DNA from: Lachnospiraceae bacterium
Lineage (GTDB): Bacteria > Bacillota > Clostridia > Lachnospirales > Lachnospiraceae
Assembly: GCA_017467845.1 (NCBI GenBank)
Contig: JAFUKH010000073.1
Coordinates: forward strand, 1-45,985
Reading direction: 5' to 3'
Length of the DNA: 45,985 nucleotides
Shown here: in pieces, positions 10,152-45,677 of the stretch
Layout: the number at the start of each line of letters is the position of its first letter
How positions within the stretch are numbered: position 1 is the first letter of the stretch
The notes under the pieces: model-generated
The model's database searches: none
Told to the model about the DNA's origin: nothing
Seen by the model: only the letters and a program-made list of their open reading frames with translations
Position numbers and translations under genes: made by a program

Positions 10152-10166
10152 TCCAATCCTCATGCA

Positions 10167-10229
10167 TATCGCAAGTCTCACTTGCGATACTGCCCAAATA
10201 GAAGAGTGAAAAATCTATGATTTTTCACT
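10167..10229. repeat. Two perfect hairpins in the wzm-wzt gap
   Basis: Bases 10167-10189 form a perfect 10-bp stem with a CTC loop (TATCGCAAGT / ACTTGCGATA). Bases 10205-10229 form a perfect 10-bp stem with a five-base loop (AGTGAAAAAT / ATTTTTCACT). Together they occupy most of the 88-base gap. The first stem lies about a dozen bases before the wzt ribosome binding site. Neither is followed by a good T-tract on the minus strand. RNA processing, protection or translational tuning seems more likely than full termination. Confidence 0.7.
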
Positions 10230-10239
10230 TTATAATTCT

Positions 10240-11813: not shown

Positions 11814-11825
11814 AATTTACCTCTT

Positions 11826-13941: not shown

Positions 13942-13965
13942 GTGTTTTCTCCTACTTTCTTCTTA

Positions 13966-14002
13966 AAACGAGCAAAAGGCCAGAGGGGTTTCTCTCTTGG
14001 CC
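13966..14002 (-). terminator. Intra-operon terminator-like hairpin between rfbB and rfbA
   Basis: On the minus strand, GGCCAAGAG...CTCTGGCC (14002-13978) forms a stable stem. TTTTGCTCGTTTT follows directly. It sits 13 bases after the rfbB stop. I see no promoter between it and rfbA, so partial read-through or an attenuation role is more plausible than complete termination. Confidence 0.6.
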
Positions 14003-14015
14003 ATTGCATTCTTAT

Positions 14016-15098
14016 TTATTTCTCATACATATCGTTGTAATACTTCTGATAATCACCACTGGTTACGTTCTTCATCCAGTCCTCGTTCTCAAAGAACCAG
14101 GCGATAGTCTTCTTAATACCATCCTTGAACATGGTCTCCGGATACCAGCCGATTTCTTCCTTAATCTTGTCCGGAGCAATGGCGTATCTTCTGTCATGTC
14201 CCTTACGATCTTCCACGTAGGTAATCAGGTCAGTGCTTACCAATGCCTTTCTCGGATCACCTTCCGGAAGCATCTCCTGAAGAGTCTCAATGATAATATT
14301 GATAATTTCGATGTTCTGCTTCTCATTGTGGCCACCTACATTATAGGTTTCGAACAGTCTTCCCTGCTCCTGTACCATATCGATTGCCTTTGCATGGTCT
14401 TCTACAAATAACCAGTCACGTACATTCTTACCATCGCCGTATACCGGAAGCTTCTTGCCCTGAAGAGCGTTGTTGATGATAAGCGGAATCAGCTTCTCCG
14501 GGAACTGATAAGGTCCGTAGTTGTTAGAACAGTTAGTGATGTTCGCAGGGAACTTATAGGTGTCCATATATGCCTTTACCAGCATATCGGAGCTTGCCTT
14601 ACTTGCAGAATATGGACTGTGTGGATCATAAGGGGTTGTCTCATAGAAGAATGCATTCTCATCATCCGGAAGAGAACCGTATACTTCGTCGGTAGAAACA
14701 TGCAAGAACTTCTTACCCTCTTTAAAGCTACCATCAGGAAGCTCCCACGCTTCCTTTGCACAGTTTAACATTACCGCAGTACCGAGTACGTTGGTCTGAA
14801 CAAATACCTCCGGGTTACGAATGGAACGGTCTACATGACTCTCTGCCGCAAAATGCACAACTCTGTCGATATCGTTCTCCTGGAAAATCTTACGGATAGC
14901 ATCCTTATCGCAGATATTTGCCTTAACGAAGGTATAGTTATCTCTACCCTCTACCTCCTTTAAGTTCTCTAAGTTACCTGCATAGGTAAGAGCATCCACG
15001 TTGATAATGCGGATCTCGTTATCATACTTTTTAAACATATAGTGAATGTAATTAGAACCGATAAATCCGGCTCCTCCGGTTACTAAATAAGTTCTCAT
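14016..15098 (-). CDS. rfbB: dTDP-glucose 4,6-dehydratase
   Basis: RmlB/RfbB is an NAD-dependent extended SDR enzyme that converts dTDP-glucose to dTDP-4-keto-6-deoxyglucose. That product is the branch point for RfbC and for the WecE aminotransferase at 22245-23381. It has the Rossmann motif TGGAGFIGSN (7-16), STDEVYGSL with the catalytic Asp-Glu pair, and the YSASK active-site pair. I chose ATG 15098 over 15122 because AAGGAG is seven bases upstream and the protein then begins MRTYLVTGGAGFIG, as in the family. This gives 360 residues. A promoter with an extended -10 lies directly upstream, making it the likely first gene of the export operon. Confidence 0.95.
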   Translation of the reverse strand: MRTYLVTGGAGFIGSNYIHYMFKKYDNEIRIINVDALTYAGNLENLKEVEGRDNYTFVKANICDKDAIRKIFQENDIDRVVHFAAESHVDRSIRNPEVFVQTNVLGTAVMLNCAKEAWELPDGSFKEGKKFLHVSTDEVYGSLPDDENAFFYETTPYDPHSPYSASKASSDMLVKAYMDTYKFPANITNCSNNYGPYQFPEKLIPLIINNALQGKKLPVYGDGKNVRDWLFVEDHAKAIDMVQEQGRLFETYNVGGHNEKQNIEIINIIIETLQEMLPEGDPRKALVSTDLITYVEDRKGHDRRYAIAPDKIKEEIGWYPETMFKDGIKKTIAWFFENEDWMKNVTSGDYQKYYNDMYEK

Positions 15099-15132
15099 TT
15101 TTATTCTCCTTATAATGGACATATTTTCTTGA

Positions 15133-15141
15133 ATTATAACA
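15133..15141 (-). promoter_or_regulatory. Extended -10 promoter of the rfbB operon
   Basis: On the minus strand TGTTATAAT (15141-15133) is a perfect TATAAT with an extended TG element, about 35 bases before the rfbB ATG. No good -35 is present at the usual distance, which is compatible with an extended -10 promoter. Confidence 0.6.
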
Positions 15142-15188
15142 CATCCTTTGTCCGCAAACTAGCATTTCTTGCCGTAATTAAGATTTTC

Positions 15189-15239
15189 ATAAGAAATTAG
15201 AGGGCGAATCTGCTTCTTTTTTTGCAAATCGCCCTCTAA
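15189..15239 (-). terminator. Terminator of the large GH25 gene
   Basis: An 11-bp perfect stem, TTAGAGGGCGA / TCGCCCTCTAA (15239-15229 with 15207-15197), begins ten bases after the GH25 stop. A TTTCTTAT tract follows on the minus strand. It separates the GH25 transcript from the rfbB promoter. Confidence 0.8.
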
Positions 15240-15248
15240 AACATAGAA

Positions 15249-17966
15249 TTAATATCCTAAGTAACTCATATTCAAGTCAACATTTCCGTCGATACCGCTT
15301 ACCTTACCGGTATCCTTATACTGCCACATATCATATCTTCCGGTATAAGTCGGTGTGGATGCATACTGTGCCAACCAAATCTTATATCCGTTTAAAGCAG
15401 ATACATCAATCTTATTGGTTAACCATGTCCTGTTTGCGTAGATACCGGCTGTATAACCATATTTCTCAATAGTCTCACAGAAGGTTTTGCAAATTGCGGT
15501 TCTCTCCTCCTTGGAAAGTGAATCTGCACGTCCACCACTGGGTTCAACGTCCAGGAAGATTGGGTAAGAGATTCTATATTTCTTCACTAGATCAAGCACC
15601 ATGGATGCCTCCTCCAATGCCTCTGCATTGTCAATGGCCTGTGTAAAGAAATATACGCCAACCTTAAGTCCCGCATCAGTTGCACCTTCAATATTGCTCT
15701 TGAACTTAGAATCCTCGATTAGTGCTCCCTGAGTAGAACCTCTATATCCGCAACGAATAATAACGTAAGATACGCCGGAATTCTTAACTGCATTCCAATC
15801 GATGTTGCCATTCCACTTAGAAACATCAATACCCATGACGCCACTACCGATTACCATACTACCGTCGCTGGCGAAGTTATACTTCACTCCCTGGATAACC
15901 TGTTCCCCGGTAACCTTCTTACCGGACGCATCATAGAAATAAACCTTACCATTTCGCGTCTGCCATCCGGTATATTTCGCATTGCCCAGTACATAGAATT
16001 TAGACGCAGAATAATAATCTGCATAGGTTGCTTCTCTGTAATCTGAACCATCATACACATATACCTGTGCACCGGAATCTGCTGTAACAAGCTTTGATGT
16101 GGTATCCGTCATCGGATGTGTAAGTACAGTCACCTTACATACCTGCGAAATCACATCCTCGCCTTCAATATACTTTACCGTAATGTCCGCAGTACCTGCA
16201 GCCACACCGGTCACGGTTACCTTGGTTCCGGATACCGCAGCAGTTGCCACGTTGGTATCGGAAGAGACTGCCTCAATTTTGTATTCACTTTCAGGTACAC
16301 TTGCATTGGTAATAAATACTGTAATCGTATCCTGCATAGTGGAATACACTGTCATATCCACGGTATGAAGCTGAATCTGCATGTCTGCAACTTTAACATA
16401 TACCTGTGCGGATGCCATTGTAGCATCAGTTCCGCCTTCTGCGTAATTCACCATTACATTAATATTTGCTTCACCATCTGCCACGGCAGTAATTGTTACT
16501 GTACCGTTACTATCAATGGACGCAGTCGCAACTATACCATTGCTGGAAGAAACTGTATATGCCAGCTTCTCATCCTGTAAAAATCCGGTAATACCCGTCA
16601 CCTTCACTGTAGCAGTTTTTCCTTTATGCATCAAAACAGACGACTTGTCCAAGGTAATGGCTCCCTTGGTTAACAGTGGCGTAGGCGAAGGGGACACCGA
16701 TGCATCCGGTGGAGAGACCGTAATTACTCCGTTACCCGTATTTCCGGTAAAGAACTTTCTTAGTGAGAACAATCCTGTACTTGCCACAGGAAGCTGTGGT
16801 GCCTTAATGGCATCCTTACTTACCTCTTCGTAAGAAGCTTCCACTACCGTACTTTCCACCCAAGTCACTGTATCACTTAAATACTCTTCTACTTCCGTAT
16901 CCTTCTGGGCAGTATCTTCCTTTGATACATCAATCTCAGATTCGTCCTTAATCTCATTGGATACGTCCACCTTCTGAATAACAATTTCGCTCTTTACTTC
17001 AGCCTTATTGGTAGCCTGGGGCAAATCATACTTATCGTACTTTCCACCTTCCAGAGCCAAGGCAGTTACTTTGTACTGACCCGGCGTCAGTTTCTTTTTA
17101 TAGATAATACCATCCATATCATCATCGGACCACATGCTGGTATTACCATCCGGATCTGTAACCTCTACACTGAATGGCACATTTCCTACCAATTTACCTG
17201 AATCCTTATTTACAAATTTAATCTTCAAATCCTTCTCAATGGAAGTCAATGTCATACCGACACTAACCTCATTGCTATATTCAGACTCATTGTATTCCGT
17301 ATTAGAATCCTCTGCCTTTAAAGCATCTTCCAAAGCCTGCAGACGTCCCTGTTCCTGTCCTGCCACTGCTAAAAGCCCTGACTCACCAATCACCTCTATA
17401 TCTGACAGTTGGTTTCCAACTGCAAGATAATCTCCGGATACTGCTTCATCCTTTGGATTCAGAATGAATATTCCGGCAATAAGAATTGCCACTAACACAA
17501 GGGCAGCTCCACCAAAGGTAATCAACTTATCAACCCATGTCATGCCACCAAAGAAACCGCCCTCGTCTTCTTCGTCATCCTCTTCATAGTACTCTTCTTC
17601 GTAATAATCTCCCTCGGCCTCTTCAGCGTACACTTCTTCTTCGTAGTACTCCTCCTCAGCCTCTTCAGCGTACACTTCTTCTTCGTAGTACTCCTCCTCA
17701 GCCTCTTCAGCGTACACTTCTTCGTAGCACTCCTCCTCAGCCTCTTCAGCGTACACTTCTTCTTCGTAGTACTCCTCCTCAGCCTCTTCAGCGTACACTT
17801 CTTCGTAGCACTCCTCCTCAACTTCCGAGGCTTCCATTTCTACATCCTCGTCCGCGTATTCCATATCCTCGTCATAAACGGATTCTTCTGCAAACTCCGT
17901 GGCCTCATCCCACTCTTCGTAGAATTCTGTATCTATATCTTTTTTTCGTTTAAAAATATTCGCCAT
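15249..17966 (-). CDS. Large membrane-anchored GH25 lysozyme with acidic repeat and Big_2-like domains
   Basis: This is a probable surface muramidase of 905 residues. The order is: a very acidic cytoplasmic segment (about 12-135) with five 13-14-residue Tyr/Glu repeats; one membrane helix (about 148-169); a beta-rich domain also found in the GH25 at 11826-13082; a Ser/Thr/Pro linker; and two Big_2-like domains (VLMHKGKTATVKVTG and the TVTGVAAGTADITV repeat end). A short cell-wall-binding-like repeat with GWQTRNGKVYFYD follows, then GH25 at the C-terminus. The active residues are GIDVSKWNG, FLDVEPSGG and VDLNMS. I chose ATG 17966 (MANIFKRKK) over 18014 because AAAGG precedes it and a promoter lies at 18001-18029. 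It is transcribed alone, divergent from 18133-19230. Confidence 0.9.
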   Translation of the reverse strand: MANIFKRKKDIDTEFYEEWDEATEFAEESVYDEDMEYADEDVEMEASEVEEECYEEVYAEEAEEEYYEEEVYAEEAEEECYEEVYAEEAEEEYYEEEVYAEEAEEEYYEEEVYAEEAEGDYYEEEYYEEDDEEDEGGFFGGMTWVDKLITFGGAALVLVAILIAGIFILNPKDEAVSGDYLAVGNQLSDIEVIGESGLLAVAGQEQGRLQALEDALKAEDSNTEYNESEYSNEVSVGMTLTSIEKDLKIKFVNKDSGKLVGNVPFSVEVTDPDGNTSMWSDDDMDGIIYKKKLTPGQYKVTALALEGGKYDKYDLPQATNKAEVKSEIVIQKVDVSNEIKDESEIDVSKEDTAQKDTEVEEYLSDTVTWVESTVVEASYEEVSKDAIKAPQLPVASTGLFSLRKFFTGNTGNGVITVSPPDASVSPSPTPLLTKGAITLDKSSVLMHKGKTATVKVTGITGFLQDEKLAYTVSSSNGIVATASIDSNGTVTITAVADGEANINVMVNYAEGGTDATMASAQVYVKVADMQIQLHTVDMTVYSTMQDTITVFITNASVPESEYKIEAVSSDTNVATAAVSGTKVTVTGVAAGTADITVKYIEGEDVISQVCKVTVLTHPMTDTTSKLVTADSGAQVYVYDGSDYREATYADYYSASKFYVLGNAKYTGWQTRNGKVYFYDASGKKVTGEQVIQGVKYNFASDGSMVIGSGVMGIDVSKWNGNIDWNAVKNSGVSYVIIRCGYRGSTQGALIEDSKFKSNIEGATDAGLKVGVYFFTQAIDNAEALEEASMVLDLVKKYRISYPIFLDVEPSGGRADSLSKEERTAICKTFCETIEKYGYTAGIYANRTWLTNKIDVSALNGYKIWLAQYASTPTYTGRYDMWQYKDTGKVSGIDGNVDLNMSYLGY
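17605..17820. repeat. Coding tandem repeat, 39/42-bp units
   Basis: Repeat copies beginning GCCTCTTCAGCGTACAC (plus strand) start at 17659, 17701, 17740 and 17782, with a first copy near 17617. The spacings are 42, 42, 39 and 42 bases. They encode EE(E/C)YYEEEVYAEEA-type units in the cytoplasmic part of the GH25 protein. All unit lengths are multiples of three, so copy-number change would keep the frame. Confidence 0.9.
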
Positions 17967-17989
17967 TTTTATAACCTTTCCCAGAAAAA

Positions 17990-18029
17990 TATACTTGTTA
18001 AGTATAGCATTCATTCATACTTCAATCAA
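17990..18029 (-). promoter_or_regulatory. Promoter of the large GH25 gene with overlapping palindrome
   Basis: On the minus strand TTGATT (18029-18024) and TATACT (18006-18001) are exactly 17 bases apart, upstream of the ATG at 17966. A perfect inverted repeat TATACTT-aac-AAGTATA (18006-17990) covers the -10 and the likely start site. It could be an operator. No regulator is identifiable in the window. Confidence 0.65.
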
Positions 18030-23402: not shown

Positions 23403-25163
23403 TTACATCTCTGCCATAAGCAGAAGAAACTTATCATTTCCAAATGCTGCTTTATAGCCATATTTTTCAATCATTTCATTAATCAGAAGTCCTTTTTTAT
23501 CATTGAAATCCGTAATATTTGTCTCACGATTTAAAATAATGACAGGACATTCTCTTCCATTTTCATCAATCTCTCTCTGCAACTGGGTCATAACTTCTTC
23601 CATCACTATATAATTGTAGGAGCGAAGATCCGCCCAAGGACTGAGCACACAGGGCATCTCCAGATAAAATGACAAGGAGGGAATGCTTCCATACAGAAGG
23701 ACTTCCTTTCCCTTCAAATTGGTTTCTTCCACAAATTCCGAAATCTCGCTTAAAATCACTGCTTTTTCTTCATCTGTTTTAATCCACTTTAAAGTATCGT
23801 TATTTTCTACATAGGTAGTATGTTCCTTACCGCCGGTCGCCTCCGTAAAGACATATCTGACACTGAATCGCACACTCTGATATCCCAATACAAGAATCAC
23901 CATGCAGATTACCAGTTTTGCAGGAATACTGCTTAACCTCAGCTTCTTAACCTTAAACTTTGTAGGAAACTGTCTTACAAATCTCCAAAGCAGCCATAAG
24001 GTAACCGGAGCTGCCACATACAGATTGTTCATTGCTGCAAACAGCTGATTATTACTTCCCAGCGGAGTCACCAACACTGTCAAAATATTTAATCCACAAA
24101 GCAGCTTCTCCTGCTCTGTAAACTCTTTACCAAAAATCACTATAATCCCAATGATATGAGTTGCCCACAGGAAAAAAATTGCCCACTGGAACACGCCGTA
24201 TAAGTTATCGTACCACGGCAGCAACACACCAATTTTGTGGAACCACCACACAAGTACCGCTATCACCCCCACGCTCAATGCAACGGAGATTACCTGTAGC
24301 CTTTCGGGAATCACTTTATAAATAACCATCCCCACAACCACTGCGACCACCAGATACAATACCCACTGTAGGTTACCAACGTAACTGTCTATCTGCCCAC
24401 GAATCATGGAAAACACGGTGTAGTCTGACGCTTCGGAAGGCATACTCAGGAGACGGATGATGCCGTGTACATAGTCTCCCACACCGTCTCGTAAGGCCAC
24501 TACTCCAAGTCCTGCTCCCACTCCGACCAAATATCCGACAACACAGGTAAATGTCTGGTTGACAACCCTTCCAATCTTTTCCTTACGAATAATTGCCATG
24601 GCCCAAACAGCCAAAATCAGAGAAACCTGAGCAAGATTTGAAAACCTCACAAACAAATTCAGTCCAAGGCACACTCCTGCAAGAACAAAATACAGTCTTG
24701 AAAATTTCGACTCCTCTCTCAGAGCAAGGTAAAGCAGAATCACTGCCACATCCATCAAAATGTAGGTCAGATAATTGTACAGAAGTGCCGTTGGGCACCA
24801 GGAAAGACACACCGCCAGAAACTCTCCGGCAAAAACAATCCACTTTGGGAGCTTTACTACCTCCACACAAAACCAGAAGCCCAGCACCGCCAATACTGAT
24901 AAGGTCAATCCCGTATACAGATTTAGTCCCAGATAGGTATCCCCTAACGGAAGCTTAGTAAACAGATTCCCTAAGAGACTGGCAAAGTAGGTGCTGAAAT
25001 ACCACATAGAATCCATATTCTCAATGTAGGTAAAATTCGCATAATTATAACCGGTATCCCACAAATCCACACCATGAAAGATATGCCTCAGCGGATATAC
25101 AAACAGTATGGCCTTCATGATAAATTTTATAATCTCATCTTTGATATTAAGCTGTTCTTCCAC
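23403..25163 (-). CDS. GT-C-like multi-pass membrane protein, putative glycosyltransferase
   Basis: This roughly 586-residue protein has about eleven membrane helices and a soluble C-terminal domain (about 430 onward). The first outside loop holds D33 and D36 in HGVDLWDTGYNYANF. An acidic pair there is the pattern of GT-C enzymes that use polyprenyl-phosphate sugars. No specific family match is certain. The start is ambiguous: GTG 25163 with a G-rich site seven bases upstream is my choice. TTG 25178 is possible, and ATG 25118 has no good ribosome binding site. The chosen start overlaps the end of the acyltransferase gene by 37 bases. Confidence 0.7.
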   Translation of the reverse strand: MEEQLNIKDEIIKFIMKAILFVYPLRHIFHGVDLWDTGYNYANFTYIENMDSMWYFSTYFASLLGNLFTKLPLGDTYLGLNLYTGLTLSVLAVLGFWFCVEVVKLPKWIVFAGEFLAVCLSWCPTALLYNYLTYILMDVAVILLYLALREESKFSRLYFVLAGVCLGLNLFVRFSNLAQVSLILAVWAMAIIRKEKIGRVVNQTFTCVVGYLVGVGAGLGVVALRDGVGDYVHGIIRLLSMPSEASDYTVFSMIRGQIDSYVGNLQWVLYLVVAVVVGMVIYKVIPERLQVISVALSVGVIAVLVWWFHKIGVLLPWYDNLYGVFQWAIFFLWATHIIGIIVIFGKEFTEQEKLLCGLNILTVLVTPLGSNNQLFAAMNNLYVAAPVTLWLLWRFVRQFPTKFKVKKLRLSSIPAKLVICMVILVLGYQSVRFSVRYVFTEATGGKEHTTYVENNDTLKWIKTDEEKAVILSEISEFVEETNLKGKEVLLYGSIPSLSFYLEMPCVLSPWADLRSYNYIVMEEVMTQLQREIDENGRECPVIILNRETNITDFNDKKGLLINEMIEKYGYKAAFGNDKFLLLMAEM

Positions 25164-26221
25164 GTTTCTTCCCCCCAAAGCTTTTTCACCGTTTCAAATA
25201 GTAAACCGCGGAACATATCCACTAATACGCCGATTACAAATACCAAAACTACGGAAACTACGGCTCTCATAACCATAAACCACACAGGTTCTCCAAGATC
25301 GGCCCCACACCAGGCAGGCCAGAGCCAGCGAATCTCCACATGCTCATGTAATAAATATACACCAAAGGTATAGGGAGCCACCTTGCAAATCAGCTTCGCA
25401 AACTTTCCCTCACCACTAATATTCCACTTAATAAATCCACAGAAAAGTGCCACTGCAGCAAACAAATTCATAATATGATTGTAGTGGTATGCATTCTGTA
25501 CAAAGCTTTCCAGTGCACCGGTCTTAAGGCACACAATTCTAAGCAGCATTGTCCATCCAAAAATCGCAAGCACTCCCAATACATAACACAGAACGCTCTT
25601 TTTACAGGTACTGAAAAAAGGAATCCCGTAAAGCCTGATATAAGCAGCCACCAAAAACACGCACATAAACCAAAGTGCATCATATCCCAGACTGTCTAAG
25701 GTCAGCTGCACCGGAATAACAGATTTCGGCACTGATATGAACAAAAGCAAAAGCGCAATCGTAATCTGCAGCTTCTTCTTCTCCATGGATTTTGCAGCAC
25801 ACGCCAAAAGCGGTGCAAAAAGATACATAAGCACATAGGCCGTTGCAAACCAATACTGCTCCATATGAATGGGCAAAACATACTGTGCCAGACGATAAAT
25901 CCCCAATTCTCCCAGAGGTATCATTCCTATCGTCACCAACACCACCGAAACTAAAATACTGTAAAATAATACCTGACAAATCAATTCTACCAGACGTCCC
26001 GGCTTAAAAGAAGATTCCACCAGAAAATAACCGCTGATTAACATATATACATTTACAGCCACAATACAAAACGCCTCCATAAACCAGGCAACGTAGCTAT
26101 TAATTCCAAATTCTCCTGTCAAGGGCTGAAGAAAATTCCCTTTCGAAAGGTAATGAAGCATCACTACCATCATCATAGAAATGATTCGCAACAGTTCTAC
26201 GCTCACTATCCTCTTTTTCAT
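25127..26221 (-). CDS. Acyltransferase-3 family membrane O-acyltransferase
   Basis: This integral membrane acyltransferase has 364 residues and about ten helices. Such enzymes typically add O-acetyl groups to surface sugars (OafA/WecH relatives). The N-terminus RIVSVELLRIISMMMVVMLHY is diagnostic, with the likely catalytic H23. A second feature is WFATAYVLMYLFAPLL near the middle. It lies between the GtrB-like transferase and a GT-C-like gene in the long operon, so the acetyl group probably goes on the glycan made here. The acceptor sugar is not determinable. Confidence 0.88.
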   Translation of the reverse strand: MKKRIVSVELLRIISMMMVVMLHYLSKGNFLQPLTGEFGINSYVAWFMEAFCIVAVNVYMLISGYFLVESSFKPGRLVELICQVLFYSILVSVVLVTIGMIPLGELGIYRLAQYVLPIHMEQYWFATAYVLMYLFAPLLACAAKSMEKKKLQITIALLLLFISVPKSVIPVQLTLDSLGYDALWFMCVFLVAAYIRLYGIPFFSTCKKSVLCYVLGVLAIFGWTMLLRIVCLKTGALESFVQNAYHYNHIMNLFAAVALFCGFIKWNISGEGKFAKLICKVAPYTFGVYLLHEHVEIRWLWPAWCGADLGEPVWFMVMRAVVSVVLVFVIGVLVDMFRGLLFETVKKLWGEETWKNSLISKMRL

Positions 26222-28763: not shown

Positions 28764-29609
28764 TTAATTACTCTCAATATATTCTATAATTGCCCGGGCA
28801 ATCTTTTTTCGTCCGTCTTCGTTGGGATGAATTCCATCTTCCGTATAAATCAATGCCTTTTCATGGGCTTTTTCCGGATAAAAATCTGTATACACATCCA
28901 CATAGCCCACACCATATTCCTCTGCAATCTCTGCAACCGCATTCACATATCCCGACATATATCCCCCGCCAAAGTCCTTATTCTCGCAGTTTTCCACAGT
29001 ATTTAGATACCAATTATAGGTAGGACTTATTAAGATAATCTGAAGGTCGGGTAAAGACTTTCTTAAAATCTCCAACGATTGCCGAAGAGTCCCTGCAAAA
29101 GTAAATTCATCATAGGGATTCTCCGGATTTTCAATGGGTACTCCCGCAAAATAGTCATTGGTTCCATACTCAATCAGCAGATATTTCAATCCTTCAAAAT
29201 CAATCTGCTCCATTTCGTCAATCACTGCCGGAAAATGCTCCGTTGAAGCTTCACGAATTGTAATCGTCTGTTGCCTGCCAAAATCTTCATAAGCTATTGC
29301 CCGTGTTAACGCACCTAAGGATAACCCATCCTTAGAATACAACTCATTTCCGGTAACATTCAAATTGGTCATGCTTGTCCCGCCCATTGCGCCATTAAAA
29401 ACGGTCATTCCCAATCCTTCTCCCACTAAATACGGAATCGAGGTCTCATCACGGTACTGTCCAATCAGACTATCTCCCAAGAAAAGGATGTCCACCTGCT
29501 TTTTCGGAACCTCTGTTATTTTAGCATATCCCCACAGACAGGCGCAAATCAGCAGCATAGACACCATAACATATGTAATTTTTCTGCCGCTCAACTTCTT
29601 TCTTTCCAC
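28764..29609 (-). CDS. Membrane-anchored SGNH/GDSL hydrolase
   Basis: This is a probable extracytoplasmic esterase, for example an O-deacetylase for a surface glycan. It has 281 residues. The N-terminal helix (about 12-28) is followed by the catalytic set: S47 in FLGDSLIGQ, G79 and neighbours in GAMGGTSM, N151 in YGTNDYF, and D258/H261 in DGIHPNEDGR. All four blocks are present, unlike the SGNH protein at 18133-19230. It begins with GTG and has GGAG about 11 bases upstream, so the start is a little uncertain. It lies five bases after pseG. Confidence 0.85.
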   Translation of the reverse strand: MERKKLSGRKITYVMVSMLLICACLWGYAKITEVPKKQVDILFLGDSLIGQYRDETSIPYLVGEGLGMTVFNGAMGGTSMTNLNVTGNELYSKDGLSLGALTRAIAYEDFGRQQTITIREASTEHFPAVIDEMEQIDFEGLKYLLIEYGTNDYFAGVPIENPENPYDEFTFAGTLRQSLEILRKSLPDLQIILISPTYNWYLNTVENCENKDFGGGYMSGYVNAVAEIAEEYGVGYVDVYTDFYPEKAHEKALIYTEDGIHPNEDGRKKIARAIIEYIESN

Positions 29610-29614
29610 GAAAT

Positions 29615-30643
29615 CTAATTCTCCAATATTCGAGCTATTCTTTTTGCTCCCTGCCCATCTACAATTCTCTTTTCCTTTTCACTACACTCCTTACGAAGAA
29701 GAAAATCCCCTCGTAATCTCTCAAAACCATTCCTTATCTCAGAAAGGCACTTTGCTGCATCCCAGTGATATTTCCCGGCGGACAGAGCAATCTTCTCACG
29801 CCCCACATACTCTACCAGCTTTTCCTGATTCTCCGCATAGGAAAAACAGATAAAAGGAACACCGATACTACAAAGCTCATACACCGTGGTACCTCCTGCG
29901 GTGATAGCCAGGTCACAGCCCAGCATCAGCCCGGCCATATCCTTCACATCATGCAATATCTCCACTCCGGGATGACTTTCTGCGTATTTCTGCAAAGTTT
30001 TATAATGTGGATTAAATCTGCCCGTCACTACCTGATAGAATATTCCACTCTCATAAATAGTATCCAGAATCTGCCCGGCAATATTATCCCGGTCTCCTCC
30101 ACCGGTGGTAATCAGCACCTTCCTTACCTTCTCCGCTACTGTATAATCCCGAGCCACGAAGTCCGGCCTGATCGGAATATAGGTGCTTCCGGTATAAATA
30201 ATTGTATCCACCGCTCCGGATAAGCCTTCATACATCTCCGGGTATGCGAATGCATTATAATTAATAATGCTATCCGCTGCCTTCACATCCTGTGCCATAT
30301 CATCTAAAATTACTACTTTTCCCATACACTTCAGCGCAAGCAGATACTCATTATTCACATAATAGCTGTCTACCAGAATGGTTACCTCTCCGGTGCCAAG
30401 ACCACCCACATTCTGCTCCTTCATCTGCTGCCAAAGTGGCAGCTCGGACATCATATCCCGGTAGTCTGTATTTAATACAAACCCCTGAAATCCATGGTCC
30501 ATAGCCAATTTTGCCGATTCCTCATCGGCGCAGATAAACAGTACTCTATTCTCGTCTATGTTTTCTGCCACAGTAAGGCAACGCATCAGGTGTCCCGCAC
30601 CGATTTTAGCATTACCGTCGGCTCTGATAATAATCTTTTTCAT
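29615..30643 (-). CDS. pseG: UDP-sugar hydrolase of pseudaminic acid synthesis
   Basis: PseG hydrolyses UDP-2,4-diacylamino-2,4,6-trideoxy-beta-L-altrose to the free sugar and UDP, giving the substrate for PseI. It has 342 residues, a GT-B-like fold related to MurG. The N-terminal signature is RADGNAKIGAGHLMRCL, with the likely catalytic H18. The UDP-binding end is AITAGGTTVYELCSIGVPFI. It is three bases after pseI and has only a weak ribosome binding site, so translation is probably coupled. A non-acetyl acyl group on the substrate is possible given the fkbH/acp pair upstream. Confidence 0.88.
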   Translation of the reverse strand: MKKIIIRADGNAKIGAGHLMRCLTVAENIDENRVLFICADEESAKLAMDHGFQGFVLNTDYRDMMSELPLWQQMKEQNVGGLGTGEVTILVDSYYVNNEYLLALKCMGKVVILDDMAQDVKAADSIINYNAFAYPEMYEGLSGAVDTIIYTGSTYIPIRPDFVARDYTVAEKVRKVLITTGGGDRDNIAGQILDTIYESGIFYQVVTGRFNPHYKTLQKYAESHPGVEILHDVKDMAGLMLGCDLAITAGGTTVYELCSIGVPFICFSYAENQEKLVEYVGREKIALSAGKYHWDAAKCLSEIRNGFERLRGDFLLRKECSEKEKRIVDGQGAKRIARILEN

Positions 30644-30646
30644 AAT

Positions 30647-31705
30647 TTATTCGTAATCTACAAGGTCCCACGACATTGGTGTCCCCAGCTTGGCATCCTT
30701 GGAAATCCTCTTGCCAAGAAGCTCTTCATAGTACTTGGTATGAAGCCCACAGCCGGGTCTTACACTTCGGAGATTCTCCGGTGTAAATACATCTCCTGCC
30801 TTCATATCCTGTGCCACAAAAAGGGATCTGGAATACTTTCGGCTCTTTTCCTGCTTCTCCGTCAGCTCATAGGTTACTTTCCCCAGTGCCTTCTCGATAA
30901 TACGGACATTGTCCACCATTTCCTTAAACTCTTCCGGTTCCATAGAAAAAGCAGAATCCACCCCGCCATCACTTCTTCTGAGGGTAAGGTGCTTTTCAAT
31001 AACTTTAGCTCCCACTGCCACACCGGCTCCTGCCACGGCACTGCCCATGGTATGGTCGGACAGACCTGCAATACAATCAAAGGTCTCTGCCATATTGGGA
31101 ATGGTTTTCAAATTGATTTCCTCATAAGGTGCCGGATATGCAGTAGAGCACTTCAGCAGGATTACATTCTCATTCCCCGCTTCCTTACAGGTTCTGAGCG
31201 CTCTCTCAATATCCTCCATATAGGCAATACCGGTGGAGATGATGATCGGTTTGCCGGTCTTTGCAATCTTTGTAAGGAGGGGAATGTCATTGATTTCTGA
31301 GGATGCCACTTTATATGCCGGAACATCCAACTCCTCCAAAAAGTCTACACTGGTCAGATCAAAAGGAGAGGAAAACAATATGATTCCCAGCTCGTCCGCA
31401 ATTTTCTTAAGCTTCGGCTGCCATTCCCAAGGGGTATACGCTTCCTGATATAATTTGTGCAGAATCATTCCATCCCAGAGCGCATCCTGCTCCAAACGGA
31501 AACAAGGATCATCACAATTTAAGGTAATCGTATCTGCTGTATATGTCTGCAACTTGATTGCGTCCGCTCCGGCCTCTTTCGCAGCCCGAACGATTGCCAC
31601 AGCCCTTTCAAAATCCATATTGTGATTACCGGACATCTCCGCAATAAAGAAAGTGGGACTGTTCTCACTAATTATTCTATTACCGATTCTAATCTCTTTA
31701 TTCAT
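30647..31705 (-). CDS. pseI: Pseudaminic acid synthase
   Basis: PseI condenses the 2,4-diacylamino-2,4,6-trideoxy-altrose with phosphoenolpyruvate to give pseudaminic acid. It is a NeuB-family enzyme with an N-terminal TIM barrel and a C-terminal SAF domain (about 285 onward). Features closer to PseI than NeuB include FIAEMSGNHN, TADTITLNCDD, the LWDGMILHKLYQEAYTPWEW stretch and PIIISTGIA. The SAF region shows RSVRPGCGLHTKYYEELLGK. I chose ATG 31705 over 31735 because GGAGG lies six bases upstream and the protein then begins MNKEIRIGNR. It overlaps pseH by eight bases. Confidence 0.9.
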   Translation of the reverse strand: MNKEIRIGNRIISENSPTFFIAEMSGNHNMDFERAVAIVRAAKEAGADAIKLQTYTADTITLNCDDPCFRLEQDALWDGMILHKLYQEAYTPWEWQPKLKKIADELGIILFSSPFDLTSVDFLEELDVPAYKVASSEINDIPLLTKIAKTGKPIIISTGIAYMEDIERALRTCKEAGNENVILLKCSTAYPAPYEEINLKTIPNMAETFDCIAGLSDHTMGSAVAGAGVAVGAKVIEKHLTLRRSDGGVDSAFSMEPEEFKEMVDNVRIIEKALGKVTYELTEKQEKSRKYSRSLFVAQDMKAGDVFTPENLRSVRPGCGLHTKYYEELLGKRISKDAKLGTPMSWDLVDYE

Positions 31706-32258
31706 TCTTTTCCTCCGGGAATACAATCTTCTCATATTTCTTGGTATGGCGGATGGAATTCCAGATTTCCTTGGTCATCCGAGTAAAGGTCACATCATAA
31801 GAAATCCCTTCCTTGGTAATATGATTCTTCTTCTCTTCCACGATTTCACCGCCACATAACAGGTGCAACTTTATCACTCCCTGGTTTAGGGTGAACACAT
31901 CACTGTAGATTGCATTCTTCCCCAGCTCATCAAATATGTAATCAAACATACTCATCTCCAGCGACAGTGCTGTCATAATACTGCGAAGGCTCTTCTCACC
32001 CACATAATAAGCCCAGCCAAGGTTTCCATCCGGATTGGTAAGCCCGGTTAAATTAATAACTCCGGCCTCTTTTCCGTCTACCAGAATCATCCAATATCGC
32101 ACATCCGAATTCTGTCTAATAGATGCCAGCCACTTTACCTGTCCTTCCATAGTCAGCTTAGGATTCGTATTCATATACTTTGTAATTTCCGGGTCCATGC
32201 GCCAACGCATAATGTTTTCTAAATCAGACTCCCGGATTTCCCGAAGCGTTACTGCCAT
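31698..32258 (-). CDS. pseH: PseH-like GNAT N-acyltransferase
   Basis: This 186-residue GNAT protein sits where PseH is expected. PseH acylates the 4-amino group of UDP-4-amino-4,6-dideoxy-N-acetyl-beta-L-altrosamine, normally with acetyl-CoA. The N-terminus reads LREIRESDLENIMRWRMDPEI. A YWMILVDGKEAGVINLTGL strand and NLGWAYYVGE follow, as in PseH. The gene begins three bases after an acyl carrier protein gene and overlaps pseI. That tight pairing raises the possibility that its donor is an acyl-ACP. The sequence alone cannot say which acyl group is used. Confidence 0.82.
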   Translation of the reverse strand: MAVTLREIRESDLENIMRWRMDPEITKYMNTNPKLTMEGQVKWLASIRQNSDVRYWMILVDGKEAGVINLTGLTNPDGNLGWAYYVGEKSLRSIMTALSLEMSMFDYIFDELGKNAIYSDVFTLNQGVIKLHLLCGGEIVEEKKNHITKEGISYDVTFTRMTKEIWNSIRHTKKYEKIVFPEEKNE

Positions 32259-32261
32259 AAG

Positions 32262-32480
32262 TTAAATCCCCGCTTTTTCAAAGATTTCTGCCACACTGGT
32301 AATCTCTACCGCTTCATCCAAAGGAATCGAAATTCCCAGCTGACTTTCCAGCTCTCCGATTAACATTACATGTGCAAGAGAATCCCACTGCTCCAAATCA
32401 GCAGCCTTGGTCTCTTCTGTCACGGTACCTGCCGGTACCTGAAAAATCTCTTCCATTAATGCAATAATTTTTTCTTTCAT
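32262..32480 (-). CDS. Acyl carrier protein
   Basis: This is a stand-alone ACP of 72 residues. The phosphopantetheine serine is S34 in the EQWDSLAHV motif, at the start of helix II. It has the usual acidic composition and length. It sits between the FkbH-like gene and pseH, so it is specialised rather than the fatty-acid ACP. By analogy with FkbH systems it would carry a glyceryl (three-carbon) thioester made from a glycolytic intermediate. The ribosome binding site GGAG is seven bases before ATG 32480. Three hairpins lie just upstream of the gene. Confidence 0.93.
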   Translation of the reverse strand: MKEKIIALMEEIFQVPAGTVTEETKAADLEQWDSLAHVMLIGELESQLGISIPLDEAVEITSVAEIFEKAGI

Positions 32481-32516
32481 TATATTTCTCCCTTAAATAC
32501 TATTCAGCCCCCATTC

Positions 32517-32627
32517 GCAAAATCGCATCTTCGATGCTTTTCTTTTGCTCATATATGGCTTCTCGCCATATAAATTTATGAAAACCGCCCTCCGTAAGTA
32601 CACTTACTCGGCCTGTTTATCATAAAT
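32517..32627. repeat. Three consecutive hairpins between the fkbH-like and acp genes
   Basis: An imperfect 54-bp palindrome (32574-32627, ATTTATGA ends, centre GTAAGTAC/ACTTAC) begins in the last codons of the fkbH-like gene. An 8-bp perfect stem, TATATGGC / GCCATATA, lies at 32552-32572. A nested hairpin, GCAAAA...GCATC-TTC-GATGC...TTTTGC, lies at 32517-32548. This is the only large gap in the right-hand operon. None has a clean terminator tract. They could set the ACP level relative to the genes upstream. Confidence 0.7.
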
Positions 32628-34266
32628 CTACATGGTTCTGAATAGTCTTCATGTAATATTCTCTCTCAGGATTCGTCGCCAAATCCAATTCATACAAATC
32701 GGCAGCCGCCTGCCTGCCCACAAACATGTATCCGGCCTTTTCATAAAGTTTTTCTACCGGCTTATTCTTTGGTGTAGCACAATACAAGCCTTGCACCTTG
32801 CCATAACCCAGCTTTCGTAATTCCTCTTCCACTATGGTCAGAATACCATATTCCACATTCTTTCCCATGATTCGGCAGCTCATAACAAAATCCGTAATCG
32901 TAGGTACACCGGATAAATCTACAATCAGAGCAGCTACGATTCCATAATCGCCAAAGCAATCCTCTACTCTATAAAGATACACCTTTTTTATAGAATCTTC
33001 CAATACCTTCTGCATCTCTGCAAGGTCATAACGCTTGGTAGTTAAGTTAAACTGATTAGTCTTATTCATCAGCTGTATAAACCTGTCAAGATTTGCTACC
33101 GGCTTCACAGACTCTAACTTTATTTGCAAATCCTTCAGATAATCCGCAAAGCTAAACGCAGAAGCCTGAAGCTGGCTTCGCTTGGCATTCTCCGCATACT
33201 GTCTGGTCTTCTCTGCATCCTCTTTGGTCAGTACCGGCTTCTCAAAATATTTTCTGTAAATCTCGCACATGGCCGGAGCCAGTTCTTCCGGCTTAGCCGG
33301 GAAATCCGGTACTACCACCTGAGGAAGCAACTTTTTAATCAGCTCCCGTTCCGTGTCACTATCATCAAAGAATACAAAGGAATCAAGTCCCAGATTCAGC
33401 TCCTGAGCCATTTCCGCAATGTTATCTGCTTTATTATTCCAATTAATCCTCTTCGCCGCAAAAGCATCGCTACGAAGTACCATATGTGGATGCTTATCTA
33501 TAATTTCCGAAGCATCCGCTTCGTTATTCTTAGAAGCAATGGCAAGTATCACACCTGCTTTCTGCATCTGTAAAATCACGCGCTGCAGGTTCTTATAGGC
33601 AAGCCCACCATGGTCATCAGATAAGGTCACCGGAGTAATATCCGCTTCTCCTGCCAAACCACCCCACAGGGTATTATCCAAATCCAGCACCAGCACCTTC
33701 TTTGGAACACCGGTTTCCAGCTCACATTTATGAAGAATCTCTTCTGCCAAACGCTTCTGTGCATCACCTGTATGCATAATCTTGCCCATATACCACATTT
33801 TTAGGGAAAATGCATTATCAGTTCCCAACCGCTCTATCACACTGCAGTAAGGAAATACTCTTACATTACTGTGCGCTCCCACACACTTTTCCAGCGCCCT
33901 CATCCATATGCTTTCCAAATCACGACGCTGCTGCGGTGAAAGAAGCTCTGCCTCTGTTCCCCAGAGAAAGGCATCCGACACATAATAAATCTTCCCCGGT
34001 TGCAAACAAGTTTCCAGCATCCGAAACCAGCGTGCTACTACTTCCTCCGCTCCTACTGCATCCGTTTCATGTTTTATCGCCTCCAGCAAATCTATGATGA
34101 GGAAGGTTATCTGTGGCTCAAATGCATGATATGAAGAATTTTTATCCATCATCAGCCCCAGCTCATTGCCATAGCCTTCTCCGGCATACATCTCCAAATC
34201 CTTCCCCAGCATACGGGTTACAAAACTTATATTCACATTCGATAACAATGCGACTTTATGCTTCAT
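32620..34266 (-). CDS. FkbH-like HAD-IIIC protein with C-terminal GNAT-like domain
   Basis: Proteins of this family take a glyceryl unit from 1,3-bisphosphoglycerate, lose its phosphate and load it on an ACP. This 548-residue protein has an N-terminal alpha/beta domain of about 180 residues. The HAD motif follows (D195 and D197 in VLVLDLDNTLWGG), then SKNNEADA and FFDDSDTERELI in the C2/motif IV region. A GNAT-like domain ends it (about 390 onward, NQFNLTTKRY, CRIMGKNVEYGIL). All HAD aspartates are present. The adjacent ACP and the Pse genes suggest glyceryl-ACP is made for a Pse derivative. The link to Pse is inference. It overlaps pseF by 11 bases. Confidence 0.85.
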   Translation of the reverse strand: MKHKVALLSNVNISFVTRMLGKDLEMYAGEGYGNELGLMMDKNSSYHAFEPQITFLIIDLLEAIKHETDAVGAEEVVARWFRMLETCLQPGKIYYVSDAFLWGTEAELLSPQQRRDLESIWMRALEKCVGAHSNVRVFPYCSVIERLGTDNAFSLKMWYMGKIMHTGDAQKRLAEEILHKCELETGVPKKVLVLDLDNTLWGGLAGEADITPVTLSDDHGGLAYKNLQRVILQMQKAGVILAIASKNNEADASEIIDKHPHMVLRSDAFAAKRINWNNKADNIAEMAQELNLGLDSFVFFDDSDTERELIKKLLPQVVVPDFPAKPEELAPAMCEIYRKYFEKPVLTKEDAEKTRQYAENAKRSQLQASAFSFADYLKDLQIKLESVKPVANLDRFIQLMNKTNQFNLTTKRYDLAEMQKVLEDSIKKVYLYRVEDCFGDYGIVAALIVDLSGVPTITDFVMSCRIMGKNVEYGILTIVEEELRKLGYGKVQGLYCATPKNKPVEKLYEKAGYMFVGRQAAADLYELDLATNPEREYYMKTIQNHVDL

Positions 34267-34957
34267 CCACTGCTCCTCTTAAAATACGATACTTCATTTC
34301 TGCGATTTCCCAGTCCGTCTGGGTATCAATATCCTGCACTTCCATTTCCGATATTTCATAAGGCAATATATTGCCTAACATTAGCTTCTTATTCACCTTG
34401 AAGGCTTCTGTACGGAACACGTAGAACTGTCCCACATCATGATAATGCTTCTCCAAATCCTGAGAACGACTGTCAATATACTGCGGATACTTAAAGACCA
34501 GTCTCCCCTCTTCAATGACCATAGCTCTCTGAGGCGGATAGGAAAATGACACTACAGGAATCAACGTATCCGCATCCGACTCCATCAGCATCTCTGTGGC
34601 ATCCTTGATTTTCTCTGCAGTAATAAAGGGTGCGGTGGGATAAATGCAACACGCCACCTCAAAGTGCTGTCCCCGCTTTTCGTATTCCTCCAGTACCTCT
34701 AAAAGCACATCATTGGTGGTAGCAAAATCATTGGCAGTCTTTTCACTTCGATAAAATGGCACCTCTGCCCCATACTGTTTCCCGATTTCCGCAATTTCTT
34801 CATCGTCCGTGGATACCATCACCGTATCAAACAAACCGGATTTCAACGCCGCCTCAATGGAATATGCCAGAATGGGCTTTCCGCAAAACTCTTTAATATT
34901 TTTTCTTGGAATTCTCTTACTTCCGCCTCTGGCGGTAATAATCGCAACCGTTTTCAT
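34256..34957 (-). CDS. pseF: CMP-pseudaminic acid synthetase
   Basis: PseF activates pseudaminic acid with CTP to CMP-Pse, the donor used by glycosyltransferases. It has 233 residues, the PseF length. The nucleotide motif ARGGSKRIPRKN is at 9-20. VMVSTDDEEIAEIG and YPTAPFITAEKI are typical of the CMP-nonulosonate synthetases, and QDIDTQTDWEIAEMKYR closes the protein. The start follows an AAAGAGG site. It abuts the preceding membrane-protein gene with no gap and overlaps the fkbH-like gene. Assignment to Pse rather than legionaminic or sialic acid rests mainly on neighbouring pseI, pseG and pseC. Confidence 0.9.
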   Translation of the reverse strand: MKTVAIITARGGSKRIPRKNIKEFCGKPILAYSIEAALKSGLFDTVMVSTDDEEIAEIGKQYGAEVPFYRSEKTANDFATTNDVLLEVLEEYEKRGQHFEVACCIYPTAPFITAEKIKDATEMLMESDADTLIPVVSFSYPPQRAMVIEEGRLVFKYPQYIDSRSQDLEKHYHDVGQFYVFRTEAFKVNKKLMLGNILPYEISEMEVQDIDTQTDWEIAEMKYRILRGAVDEA

Positions 34958-43239: not shown

Positions 43240-44310
43240 CTAAATCTGTTCATTCTGTCTATGCACCAGAGGGTCCTCGTATTTATCCATAAAATCCTCT
43301 CCAAGGCGCACCACCTCATCCGCAAACTGAATCAGTTTAATCTCTGTAAGTACTGCAACCACCTTCTTAAACCGAAGTCCCGGAAAGAAATTCAGCATCT
43401 CCATGGGTACCGTTGCATCAAACTGTGGATATTCTGCAAAAAGTTCACGATAATCAAGTTCATCACGGGGATGAGGCTTAATAAATACCGTTCCCTCTTT
43501 TTCATATGTCTCAATAATATCCCGAAAAATTCTCTCTCGAATATCAAGGGTACAAAGAGGCTCCGTCAAAATCAAGATTTTATCATTCACATCGCCACTG
43601 TCTGAAATCTGTGTCTTCAAAGCATCCATATCCCGGATGAACGCCTGCAAAATAATATCCTTGTCATCCTGCGTCAGCTTGTCCACCAGCCCCTGTCTGG
43701 GAACCTCCACATACTTATGGTAAGGATATTTAATTACCGACTTATCGTTGACTTCCATATCAATACAGTACTTACCATAACCATTCTGAATAAAAATAAG
43801 ATTCAGCTTCTCAGACATAAAAGCCTTTAATCCGAAATGTCCCCTGTTATCATATCGTGCCGCATCATAATTCTTCAGACAGTTCAGACCGTCTTCAAGG
43901 GCATGATACTTAATATGATTCATATTCAGATAATATCCGATCGGGTCAGAATCACAATATACATAGACCTCATCGTACTTCTTCAAGTCCACCGGTATGT
44001 ACGATGATAACGCCTTTGCAAACTTTCTGGTAAAAATAATTCTCTGCCAAAGATTCGCGATAATGTTTCCCCTGTCTTGGCGATACTTAGCAAGCTCCGG
44101 AAAAAAGGTATCCCTCTTCTCATCAAACTCATATACCGCTTCAAACAGTCCGGTACTCTCCACCCTTTCCTTCAAATTCTCAAAATCAATAGAAAGACTG
44201 CTAAGTATCAGCGATGCCTGTCCCCTGCGTTCCTTTGGTAAGTTTAATTCTTTTAAAAAAGTCACATACACATGATAATAGGTGTGACATATATAAATTC
44301 TGGAAGACAT
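43240..44310 (-). CDS. GT52/GT38-like glycosyltransferase, putative pseudaminic acid transferase
   Basis: This 356-residue soluble GT-B-type protein lacks membrane segments. Two motifs match bacterial sialyl- and polysialyltransferases: an acidic-acidic-Gly motif (E139-D140-G141 in YHALEDGLN) and the HP motif (H280-P281 in VFIKPHPRDELDY), which bind the CMP part and provide catalysis. In an operon making CMP-Pse it is the best candidate for the enzyme that transfers Pse to its acceptor. It is first in the long operon, with GGAGG six bases before ATG 44310 and a promoter upstream. The third family motif (Ser-Ser/Thr) is not obvious. Confidence 0.72.
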   Translation of the reverse strand: MSSRIYICHTYYHVYVTFLKELNLPKERRGQASLILSSLSIDFENLKERVESTGLFEAVYEFDEKRDTFFPELAKYRQDRGNIIANLWQRIIFTRKFAKALSSYIPVDLKKYDEVYVYCDSDPIGYYLNMNHIKYHALEDGLNCLKNYDAARYDNRGHFGLKAFMSEKLNLIFIQNGYGKYCIDMEVNDKSVIKYPYHKYVEVPRQGLVDKLTQDDKDIILQAFIRDMDALKTQISDSGDVNDKILILTEPLCTLDIRERIFRDIIETYEKEGTVFIKPHPRDELDYRELFAEYPQFDATVPMEMLNFFPGLRFKKVVAVLTEIKLIQFADEVVRLGEDFMDKYEDPLVHRQNEQI

Positions 44311-44373: not shown

Positions 44374-44445
44374 AGTAATTTGTTGTTGTTAAGAAATTCC
44401 TAAGAAAATCCGAAGTTTTATGCTCTTTCGGAAAAACTTTACAAG

Positions 44446-44454
44446 TGCTATACT
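44446..44454 (+). promoter_or_regulatory. Extended -10 promoter of pseC
   Basis: TGCTATACT (44446-44454) is an extended -10 element 29 bases before the pseC ATG at 44484. The -35 region is poor (TTTCGG at about the right distance). Confidence 0.5.
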
Positions 44455-44483
44455 ATAGTGGATTAGTCAAGGAGGATATTGAC

Positions 44484-45677
44484 ATGGAAAAATTAGCAAT
44501 TCTGGGAGGGACTCCCGTTCGAACGAAACCTATCAGCTACGGCAGACAATATATAGATAACGCCGACATTCAGGCTGTGGTAGACACCCTGCGCAGTGAT
44601 TATCTCACCGTCGGTCCTAAGACAAAAGAATTGGAGGAAAAGCTTTGTAAGATTACCGGAGCAAAATACTGTGTTGCAGTCAGCAACGGTACCGCTGCCC
44701 TTCATATCGCAGCTATAGCTGCCGGAATCGGCCCCGGCGATGAAGTGATTACCACACCGATTACCTTCGCAGCAAGTGCCAACTGCGTCCTCTATGTAGG
44801 TGCAAAACCTGTTTTCGCAGATATCAATCCGGAGACCTACAATATAGATCCTGCATCTATCCGTGCCTGCATTACCGATAAGACCAAGGCCATTGTTGCC
44901 GTGGATTTTACCGGTCAGGCTACAGAACTGGACGAGATACGCTCCATCTGTAAAGAACATAATTTAGTATTAATCGAAGATGCAGCTCACAGCATCGGAA
45001 CCAAATACAACGGAGTTCCTGTAGGAAATATCGCAGATATGACCACCTTCAGCTTCCATCCGGTGAAGACCGTAACTGCCGGAGAAGGCGGTGCCGTCAC
45101 CACCAACGATGAAGAGCTTTACAAGAAGCTTGTTCTGGCACATACCCATGGCATCACCAGAGATATTGCTCAGATGAAGAATCCAACCGATGACCCTTGG
45201 TACAACGAGCAGGTCGGATTTGGTTATAACTACCGCATCACAGAATTCCAGGCCGCGCTTCTTATGAGCCAGCTGGATAAGCTGGATATGTTCTCAAAAC
45301 GCAGAAAAGAAATTGTGAAGACTTATGATGAAGCATTTGCAGATGTACCTCAGATTCAGGTTCAAAAAGAAATCCCTGAGTCTGATACCACAAGACATCT
45401 TTACATTTTACGTCTTCACTTAGAGATGCTTAATTGTACCAGACGTGAATTTTTCGATGCACTTCGTGCAGAAGGAATCAGCTCACAAGTACACTACCTG
45501 CCGGTTTACTGGCACTCTTATTACGAGGGTCTGGGCTATCCTAAGGGACTTTGCCCGGAAGCAGAGAAATACTATCAGGAATCCATGAGCCTTCCATTGT
45601 TCTACTCCATGACTGACGAAGATGTTGCGGACGTGATTTTTGCAGTCAAAAAAATTATTGTATATTACGCCAAATAA
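44484..45677 (+). CDS. pseC: UDP-4-amino-4,6-dideoxy-N-acetyl-altrosamine transaminase
   Basis: PseC is the PLP aminotransferase of the pseudaminic acid pathway. It aminates the 4-keto sugar made by PseB. The 397-residue protein has the PLP lysine K195 in the diagnostic FSFHPVKTVTAGEGGAVTTN stretch, plus LTVGPKTKELEEKL and LIEDAAHSIGTKYNG. I chose ATG 44484 over 44445 because AAGGAGG lies eight bases upstream. It is divergent from the operon that carries the rest of the Pse genes, with its own promoter and terminator. PseB (the dehydratase/epimerase) is not in the window and must be elsewhere if the pathway is complete. Confidence 0.92.
   Translation: MEKLAILGGTPVRTKPISYGRQYIDNADIQAVVDTLRSDYLTVGPKTKELEEKLCKITGAKYCVAVSNGTAALHIAAIAAGIGPGDEVITTPITFAASANCVLYVGAKPVFADINPETYNIDPASIRACITDKTKAIVAVDFTGQATELDEIRSICKEHNLVLIEDAAHSIGTKYNGVPVGNIADMTTFSFHPVKTVTAGEGGAVTTNDEELYKKLVLAHTHGITRDIAQMKNPTDDPWYNEQVGFGYNYRITEFQAALLMSQLDKLDMFSKRRKEIVKTYDEAFADVPQIQVQKEIPESDTTRHLYILRLHLEMLNCTRREFFDALRAEGISSQVHYLPVYWHSYYEGLGYPKGLCPEAEKYYQESMSLPLFYSMTDEDVADVIFAVKKIIVYYAK

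Follow-up and report, generated by a model that had tools for sequence, protein, structure and literature searches.

A pseudaminic acid gene cassette in Lachnospiraceae with a PseH-like acyltransferase that may take its acyl group from an FkbH-loaded acyl carrier protein

Among described systems, the flagellar locus of Campylobacter jejuni that holds cj1302 appears to be the nearest precedent for the gene cassette considered here, in which pseudaminic acid (Pse) genes are joined with an fkbH-like gene and a gene for an acyl carrier protein (ACP) on a stretch of 45,985 nucleotides (the window) from a Lachnospiraceae bacterium (assembly GCA_017467845.1, contig JAFUKH010000073.1). Passages of one study report dimethylglyceryl-Pse in C. 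jejuni 11168 and none in strain 12664, whose fkbH-domain gene cj1302 is a pseudogene, or in strain 12661, which lacks cj1301, annotated as an epimerase gene; in those passages the authors draw no link from cj1301 or cj1302 to the loss of the sugar, and the strains differ at other genes too (PMC7099621). Cj1295 is required for dimethylglyceryl-Pse in C. jejuni, according to a passage of PMC3068675. As in the C. jejuni flagellar locus, an fkbH-domain gene lies among Pse genes in the window, the glyceric-acid-derived acyl group on Pse being, in the passages of these studies, that of C. jejuni; unlike in C. jejuni, where Cj1295 is needed and the acyl group is di-O-methylated, the window cassette has no methyltransferase gene between pseF and pseG.

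For tetronate pathways, a passage of PMC7489565 gives FkbH together with a stand-alone ACP as a proposed route to glyceryl-ACP. In tetronate and methoxymalonyl pathways the acyl unit enters a polyketide, whereas here it would presumably be passed to the amine of a nucleotide sugar. The group II flagellar glycosylation islands of Aeromonas likewise have genes for an ACP, a 3-oxoacyl-ACP reductase and an AMP-dependent synthetase near Pse genes, but they carry luxC/luxE-type genes and, in the passages that describe them, no FkbH (PMC7874193). The main text of a survey of Pse loci in Clostridium, from 2026, mentions neither FkbH nor an acyl carrier (PMC13317340). Within the literature searched, most subscription journals lying outside it, no paper describing an FkbH-ACP-PseH route came to light, and none that joined FkbH and an ACP with pseudaminic acid, or FkbH, glyceryl and an ACP with a polysaccharide.

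We propose, at a probability of roughly 60%, that the operon makes a Pse with a C3 hydroxyacyl group, in the simplest case glyceryl, in place of acetyl on the 7-amino group, and that this group would be attached by an ACP-dependent, PseH-like GNAT N-acyltransferase (here PseH') fed by FkbH. FkbH would take the glyceryl unit of 1,3-bisphosphoglycerate, remove the phosphate and load the small ACP; PseH' would then move glyceryl from the phosphopantetheine arm of the ACP to the 4-amine of the PseC product (N7 of Pse), after which PseG, PseI and PseF would lead to CMP-Pse5Ac7Gr. The ACP as donor, glyceryl as the acyl group, and the 4-amine as acceptor and position are the parts of this route that we infer. 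Observed are the genes, which are linked and diverge together, the altered residues of PseH' and the exchange of its partners, and what is new here is a PseH' clade with an alteration in the glycine loop that holds the pyrophosphate of coenzyme A (CoA) in GNATs.

Family models bear out the order pseF-fkbH-acp-pseH-pseI-pseG given in an earlier note on this DNA, on the minus strand from 34957 down to 29615. PseF, the CMP-pseudaminic acid synthetase (34256..34957; TIGR03584, 301.5 bits, cut-off 205.7), is followed by an FkbH-family protein of 548 amino acids, the predicted glyceryl loader (32620..34266; TIGR01686, 285.7 bits, cut-off 146.65), the stand-alone ACP of 72 amino acids (32262..32480; PF00550, 30.3 bits, cut-off 20.8), PseH', a member of the ACP-linked clade (31698..32258; TIGR03585, 87.7 bits, just below the cut-off of 93.1), the pseudaminic acid synthase PseI (30647..31735; TIGR03586, 486.8 bits, cut-off 340.25) and the UDP-sugar hydrolase PseG (29615..30643; TIGR03590, 194.8 bits, cut-off 153.55), which falls outside the interval 30647..34957. 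The acp gene ends three bases before pseH, as had been noted; the description of the module as tightly packed holds at that junction but not between fkbH and acp, which are 139 bp apart.

The window FkbH belongs to the TIGR01686 family by its score, by a HAD phosphatase domain with LDLDNT from residue 194 and by a C-terminal domain with SCR at 463 (Cys464); the [ML]SCR motif is present in all 61 high-scoring FkbHs of the wide scan described below. What is known of the family would predict that this protein puts glyceryl on the ACP, a PF00550 member with its phosphopantetheine site at Ser34, in DSL at 33-35. It is the window protein that gives the only FkbH match in the draft genome (2,995,431 bases, 85.84% complete), of which the window forms contig C63. 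It had also been suggested that a GNAT-like tail of FkbH might acylate the sugar, for which there is no need: TIGR01686, an ordinary FkbH model, covers residues 189-514 of the 548, the tail is standard for the family, and we set the C-terminal domain aside as a candidate sugar acyltransferase. PseC, the UDP-4-amino-4,6-dideoxy-N-acetyl-altrosamine transaminase, is encoded near the contig end on the plus strand (44445..45677; TIGR03588, 473.3 bits, cut-off 423.5) and PseB on contig C57, and the pathway set PseB, PseC, PseG, PseI and PseF is found entire in the draft genome.

Among 397 genomes from the window's family, 82 have an FkbH over the cut-off and 84 a PseI over the cut-off, the latter at 85 loci, all of which were read over at most 20 kb each. 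PseH' occurs at ten of these loci, every time with FkbH and an ACP; the remaining 75 reach at most 134 bits with a PseH' profile built from those ten, and FkbH is present at one of them (L063). All ten cassette genomes have PseC over the cut-off, and nine have PseB. The pairing of FkbH with an ACP extends beyond the cassette (an ACP match at 26 of the 29 FkbH loci examined) and is a general module. With the PseH' alignment as query, a wide scan over 84,980 species yielded 97 relatives, of which 80 were kept as the basis of all counts out of 80; its seeds include W[GA]YY[VI][GA]E[KD], a motif that stops just short of the glycine loop and may favor close relatives, and many of the loci are interrupted by contig ends. 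FkbH was found at 66 of the 80 loci, an ACP at 72 (one of them weak) and both together at 66. These loci show an unbroken fkbH-acp-pseH in 63/80, an extension to pseI in 56/80 and the complete six-gene order in 39/80.

These relatives lie mostly in records named Lachnospiraceae or Acetatifactor, among them the named strains Acetatifactor muris DSM 23669 (L183) and Mobilisporobacter senegalensis DSM 26537 (L228), with single records named Treponema, Selenomonadaceae, Synergistaceae and Eubacterium; the cassette is not special to this strain, occurring in many Lachnospiraceae records and in some named for other phyla. At L220 and L230 no Pse genes accompany the trio within the stretch read, and PseH' therefore follows FkbH-ACP no less closely than it follows PseI. 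Distance matrices over 61 loci correlate between FkbH and ACP (r = 0.856), FkbH and PseH' (0.843) and ACP and PseH' (0.779), with none of 999 permutations as high, a correlation that could come from shared descent alone. The gene order of the cassette exceeds chance, given its recurrence across many genomes and these correlated matrices. At L191 and L203 the ACP forms the C-terminal end of a frame of 292-319 amino acids with an unrelated N-terminal part, which may be a start-site artifact. The ACP identity of the genes at L120, L122 and L231, which have no Pfam match, is doubtful.

In PseH of Helicobacter pylori, the CoA pyrophosphate is bound by the main chain of Gly103 and by Lys133, and Asn131 touches the pantetheine side, as described in a passage of PMC4363471. 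We counted the glycine of the loop, R/Q-x-x-G-x-G/A, at fixed alignment positions. PseH-like GNATs were sought in 80 of the 84 PseI genomes (G094, G060, G146 and G074 were left out); the controls, which are not a random sample, comprise 38 GNATs chosen among the matches listed, 37 of them readable, and one from L239, making 38. The position-4 glycine is present in 38/38 controls versus 7/90 cassette-type rows, which are not independent, since several loci enter twice, once among the ten family cassettes and again among the 80 scan rows. The corresponding residues of the window PseH' are R92-S-I-M-T-A97, which is not the loop of a CoA-dependent GNAT. Three of the seven glycine-bearing rows (L236, L240 and L241) have neither FkbH nor ACP nearby; the L240 genome gave no FkbH match and the L236 genome a single one at 138 bits, just under the cut-off.

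For the tree of 110 rows (identical sequences removed, 5 of the 20 PseI-adjacent controls kept), all controls and L236, L240 and L241 were labeled "kept" and all other cassette-type rows "lost"; the 82 "lost" rows, which include four with the position-4 glycine, make up one side of a single branch with support 97/87. The loop change is a single change on this tree. Like canonical PseH (C. jejuni 4xpk, H. pylori 4ri1), PseH' is assigned to the same pathway step and keeps the pantetheine-side Asn, and 4xpk is the best solved match of its profile (62.3 bits); unlike canonical PseH, the window copy lies under the TIGR03585 cut-off, lacks the central loop glycine and has His132 in place of the general-acid Tyr. 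Both His132 and N125, the equivalent of Asn131, are invariant in 80/80 scan rows. The histidine marks a wider group and is no mark of loop loss, because loop-bearing rows have it too. The equivalent of Lys133 was set aside as a discriminator, the control GNATs varying there as well.

A changed loop is what would be expected if the phosphopantetheine that reaches the enzyme is borne by a protein, so that the ADP end of CoA need no longer be bound, although it is not proof, because FdhC (5kta), a solved sugar GNAT that acylates an amino sugar with hydroxybutanoyl, is also without the loop and is a CoA user. FdhC shares with PseH' the want of a clear P-loop and the histidine at the general-acid position, and the PseH' protein of L068 scores higher against it than against C. 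jejuni PseH (35.6 versus 21.9 bits); to the window PseH', however, FdhC is weakly similar (19 bits, or 45.6 bits when the profile is used).

Besides the missing loop of FdhC and the shared descent that could account for the correlated distances, several findings weigh against the proposed route. Four PseH' proteins linked to both FkbH and an ACP (L174, L178, L183 and L184) keep the position-4 glycine, as RSxGTA, and these are the glycine-bearing rows that carried the label "lost" in the tree test. At five other loci (L217, L223, L224, L233 and L237) the loop is changed, FkbH/ACP were not found in the stretch read, and the genomes have FkbH over the cut-off elsewhere; L217, L223 and L224 are counted as unexplained. 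Six of the ten family cassette PseHs pass the TIGR03585 model of the acetyl-transferring PseH and four, including the window copy, do not, so the clade straddles the cut-off, and a score below it was dropped as a clade mark. The passing of the model weakens the view that these proteins are not PseHs and at the same time speaks for the usual PseH sugar acceptor, and the odds of the proposed route are therefore left unchanged.

The same six copies are consistent with PseH' still being an acetyl-CoA-dependent PseH, in which case FkbH-ACP would feed a different acyltransferase that O-acylates the glycan, such as a membrane Acyl_transf_3 protein (25127-26221) or a GDSL protein (28764-29609), both encoded close to the cassette. 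GDSL homologues also follow PseG in L061, L062 and L066 and PseF in L069, where an Acyl_transf_3 homologue is present as well. However, FkbH-ACP adjoins PseH' in L065, L067, L068 and L070, whose 20-kb stretches match neither gene, and the CoA loop of PseH' is changed; we consider this explanation rather unlikely.

Eight of the ten cassette genomes have, among the matches listed, another PseH-like GNAT with the position-4 glycine, and this too counts against a simple replacement of acetyl. In the window genome (G000) the gene lies on contig C70, and in G198 it follows PseC-PseB; at L239 (377-5410, a Synergistaceae metagenome-assembled genome) the gene run that contains the FkbH-ACP-PseH' trio also has a second PseH-like GNAT. 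Because loop-bearing PseH-like GNATs coexist with the cassette in this way, acetylation may still occur, and PseH' may add to it and not replace it, much as C. jejuni 11168 has the two forms of the sugar side by side (PMC7099621). Glyceryl might then be placed on N5 or on a hydroxyl of Pse while the loop-bearing GNAT (in the window genome, the C70 protein) performs the usual N7 acetylation, as its position beside PseC-PseB in G198 and the two PseH-like genes of the L239 run would allow. We judge this quite unlikely, since PseH' matches the PseH model over almost its entire length, with six of ten copies over the cut-off, while the C70 gene stands between glycosyltransferases and GNATs of its clade also occur in genomes without the cassette.

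The partners of PseH' vary. A FabG-like reductase directly precedes PseH' with the changed loop in L231, L233 and L237, which form one clade in a quick tree and have no FkbH beside them (the L231 genome has none, the other two have it elsewhere); this arrangement suggests that Pse, or a related sugar, may carry a 3-hydroxyacyl group. In each of the five long PseH' proteins that were scanned (L068, L219, L220, L229 and L230), PseH' is fused to a VOC domain that resembles methylmalonyl-CoA epimerase, below the cut-off in the two tested (53.3 and 51.2 versus 114.95), and whose best solved matches are proteins named lactoylglutathione lyase and glyoxalase-I. With glyoxalase-named best matches and scores under the epimerase cut-off, the domain was rejected as a proven epimerase. 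Methylmalonyl-CoA epimerases and glyoxalases both act on alpha-substituted thioesters. At L064, PseH' and FkbH-ACP share a gene run in which PseH' has a methyltransferase gene on either side, a pair that could be what dimethylglyceryl would need, and at L162 (7173-8138 in G276, which is not among the FkbH-matching genomes) a PseH-like GNAT with an intact P-loop is fused to a MaoC hydratase. The VOC fusions, the L064 methyltransferases, FabG and the MaoC fusion would all fit a hydroxyacyl thioester.

Several further loci show related arrangements. At the Pse locus L108 (G188, 10463-15718), a PseH-like GNAT is joined by an ACP-like gene (30 bits with a profile made for this analysis) and by a row of two FabH-like and three FabG-like genes, and the module reads as a small dedicated fatty-acid-type set. 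The Pse operon at L122 (G079, 9116-10718) holds genes for a hexapeptide acyltransferase, a VOC protein and a possible ACP (without a Pfam match), with no FkbH in the stretch read. L221 and L226, from records named proteobacterium and Gammaproteobacteria, have ACP-PseH' in genomes without an FkbH match; at L226 the pair comes right after genes for a flagellin and an FMN reductase.

The VOC fusions and methyltransferases of some cassettes, the FabG of FkbH-less relatives and the dimethylglyceryl-Pse reported for C. jejuni in passages of PMC7099621 agree with an ACP that carries another hydroxyacyl group, the glycerate from FkbH being oxidized, methylated, epimerized or extended, for instance to methoxy- or di-O-methylglyceryl-Pse. 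For the window this is unlikely, as the span from pseF to pseG contains no methyltransferase, VOC or dehydrogenase gene; the O-methyltransferases that a C. jejuni-type route would have beside the FkbH cassette are absent from that span, whereas L064 has two such genes, and a methyltransferase-domain protein is encoded far off in the window, at 6718-8799. Glyceryl is the simplest group predicted for the window, and glyceryl-Pse would be expected to give an oxonium ion of m/z 363.14, calculated as the 317.13 of Pse5Ac7Ac (given in a passage of PMC7099621) plus 46.005 for the exchange of acetyl for glyceryl.

Elsewhere in the window are genes for an ABC transporter ATPase with a Wzt_C domain, for glycosyltransferases and for a GT52/polysialyltransferase-like protein (43240..44310, minus strand; PF07922 56.8 bits, PF07388 26.3 bits), and because of these genes the sugar of the cassette is probably part of an exported surface glycan. 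The GT52/polysialyltransferase-like protein, homologues of which are encoded near the cassette in L062 and L069, is a candidate pseudaminyltransferase. At 15249-18014 the window encodes a GH25 lysozyme-like protein in which a repetitive, very acidic N-terminal part is combined with Big_2 and choline-binding-type domains.

The arrangement described in the earlier note is confirmed, and its interpretation is partly supported and strengthened: the altered loop of PseH', the linkage of the genes and the exchange of partners lend independent support to an ACP-dependent PseH fed by FkbH, with glyceryl and its transfer to the amine drawn from knowledge of the families. More tentatively, and with somewhat less than even odds, a nucleotide-sugar GNAT may have switched once from CoA to a dedicated carrier protein, after which the donor could be exchanged: glyceryl from FkbH, an epimerized form with the VOC domain, dimethylglyceryl with two methyltransferases and a 3-hydroxyacyl group with FabG. 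The cassette would then move among Lachnospiraceae and other phyla and diversify the N-acylated Pse on gut bacteria. The carriers include the collection strains DSM 26537 and DSM 23669, and the claim is therefore testable without metagenomic material. N-acyl groups on nonulosonic acids likely affect the recognition of such sugars. If an ACP and not CoA feeds this step, the neighboring genes could tell which acyl group is added, sugars not yet seen could be predictable from genomes, and a role would be suggested for the fkbH-domain gene in the C. jejuni flagellar locus.

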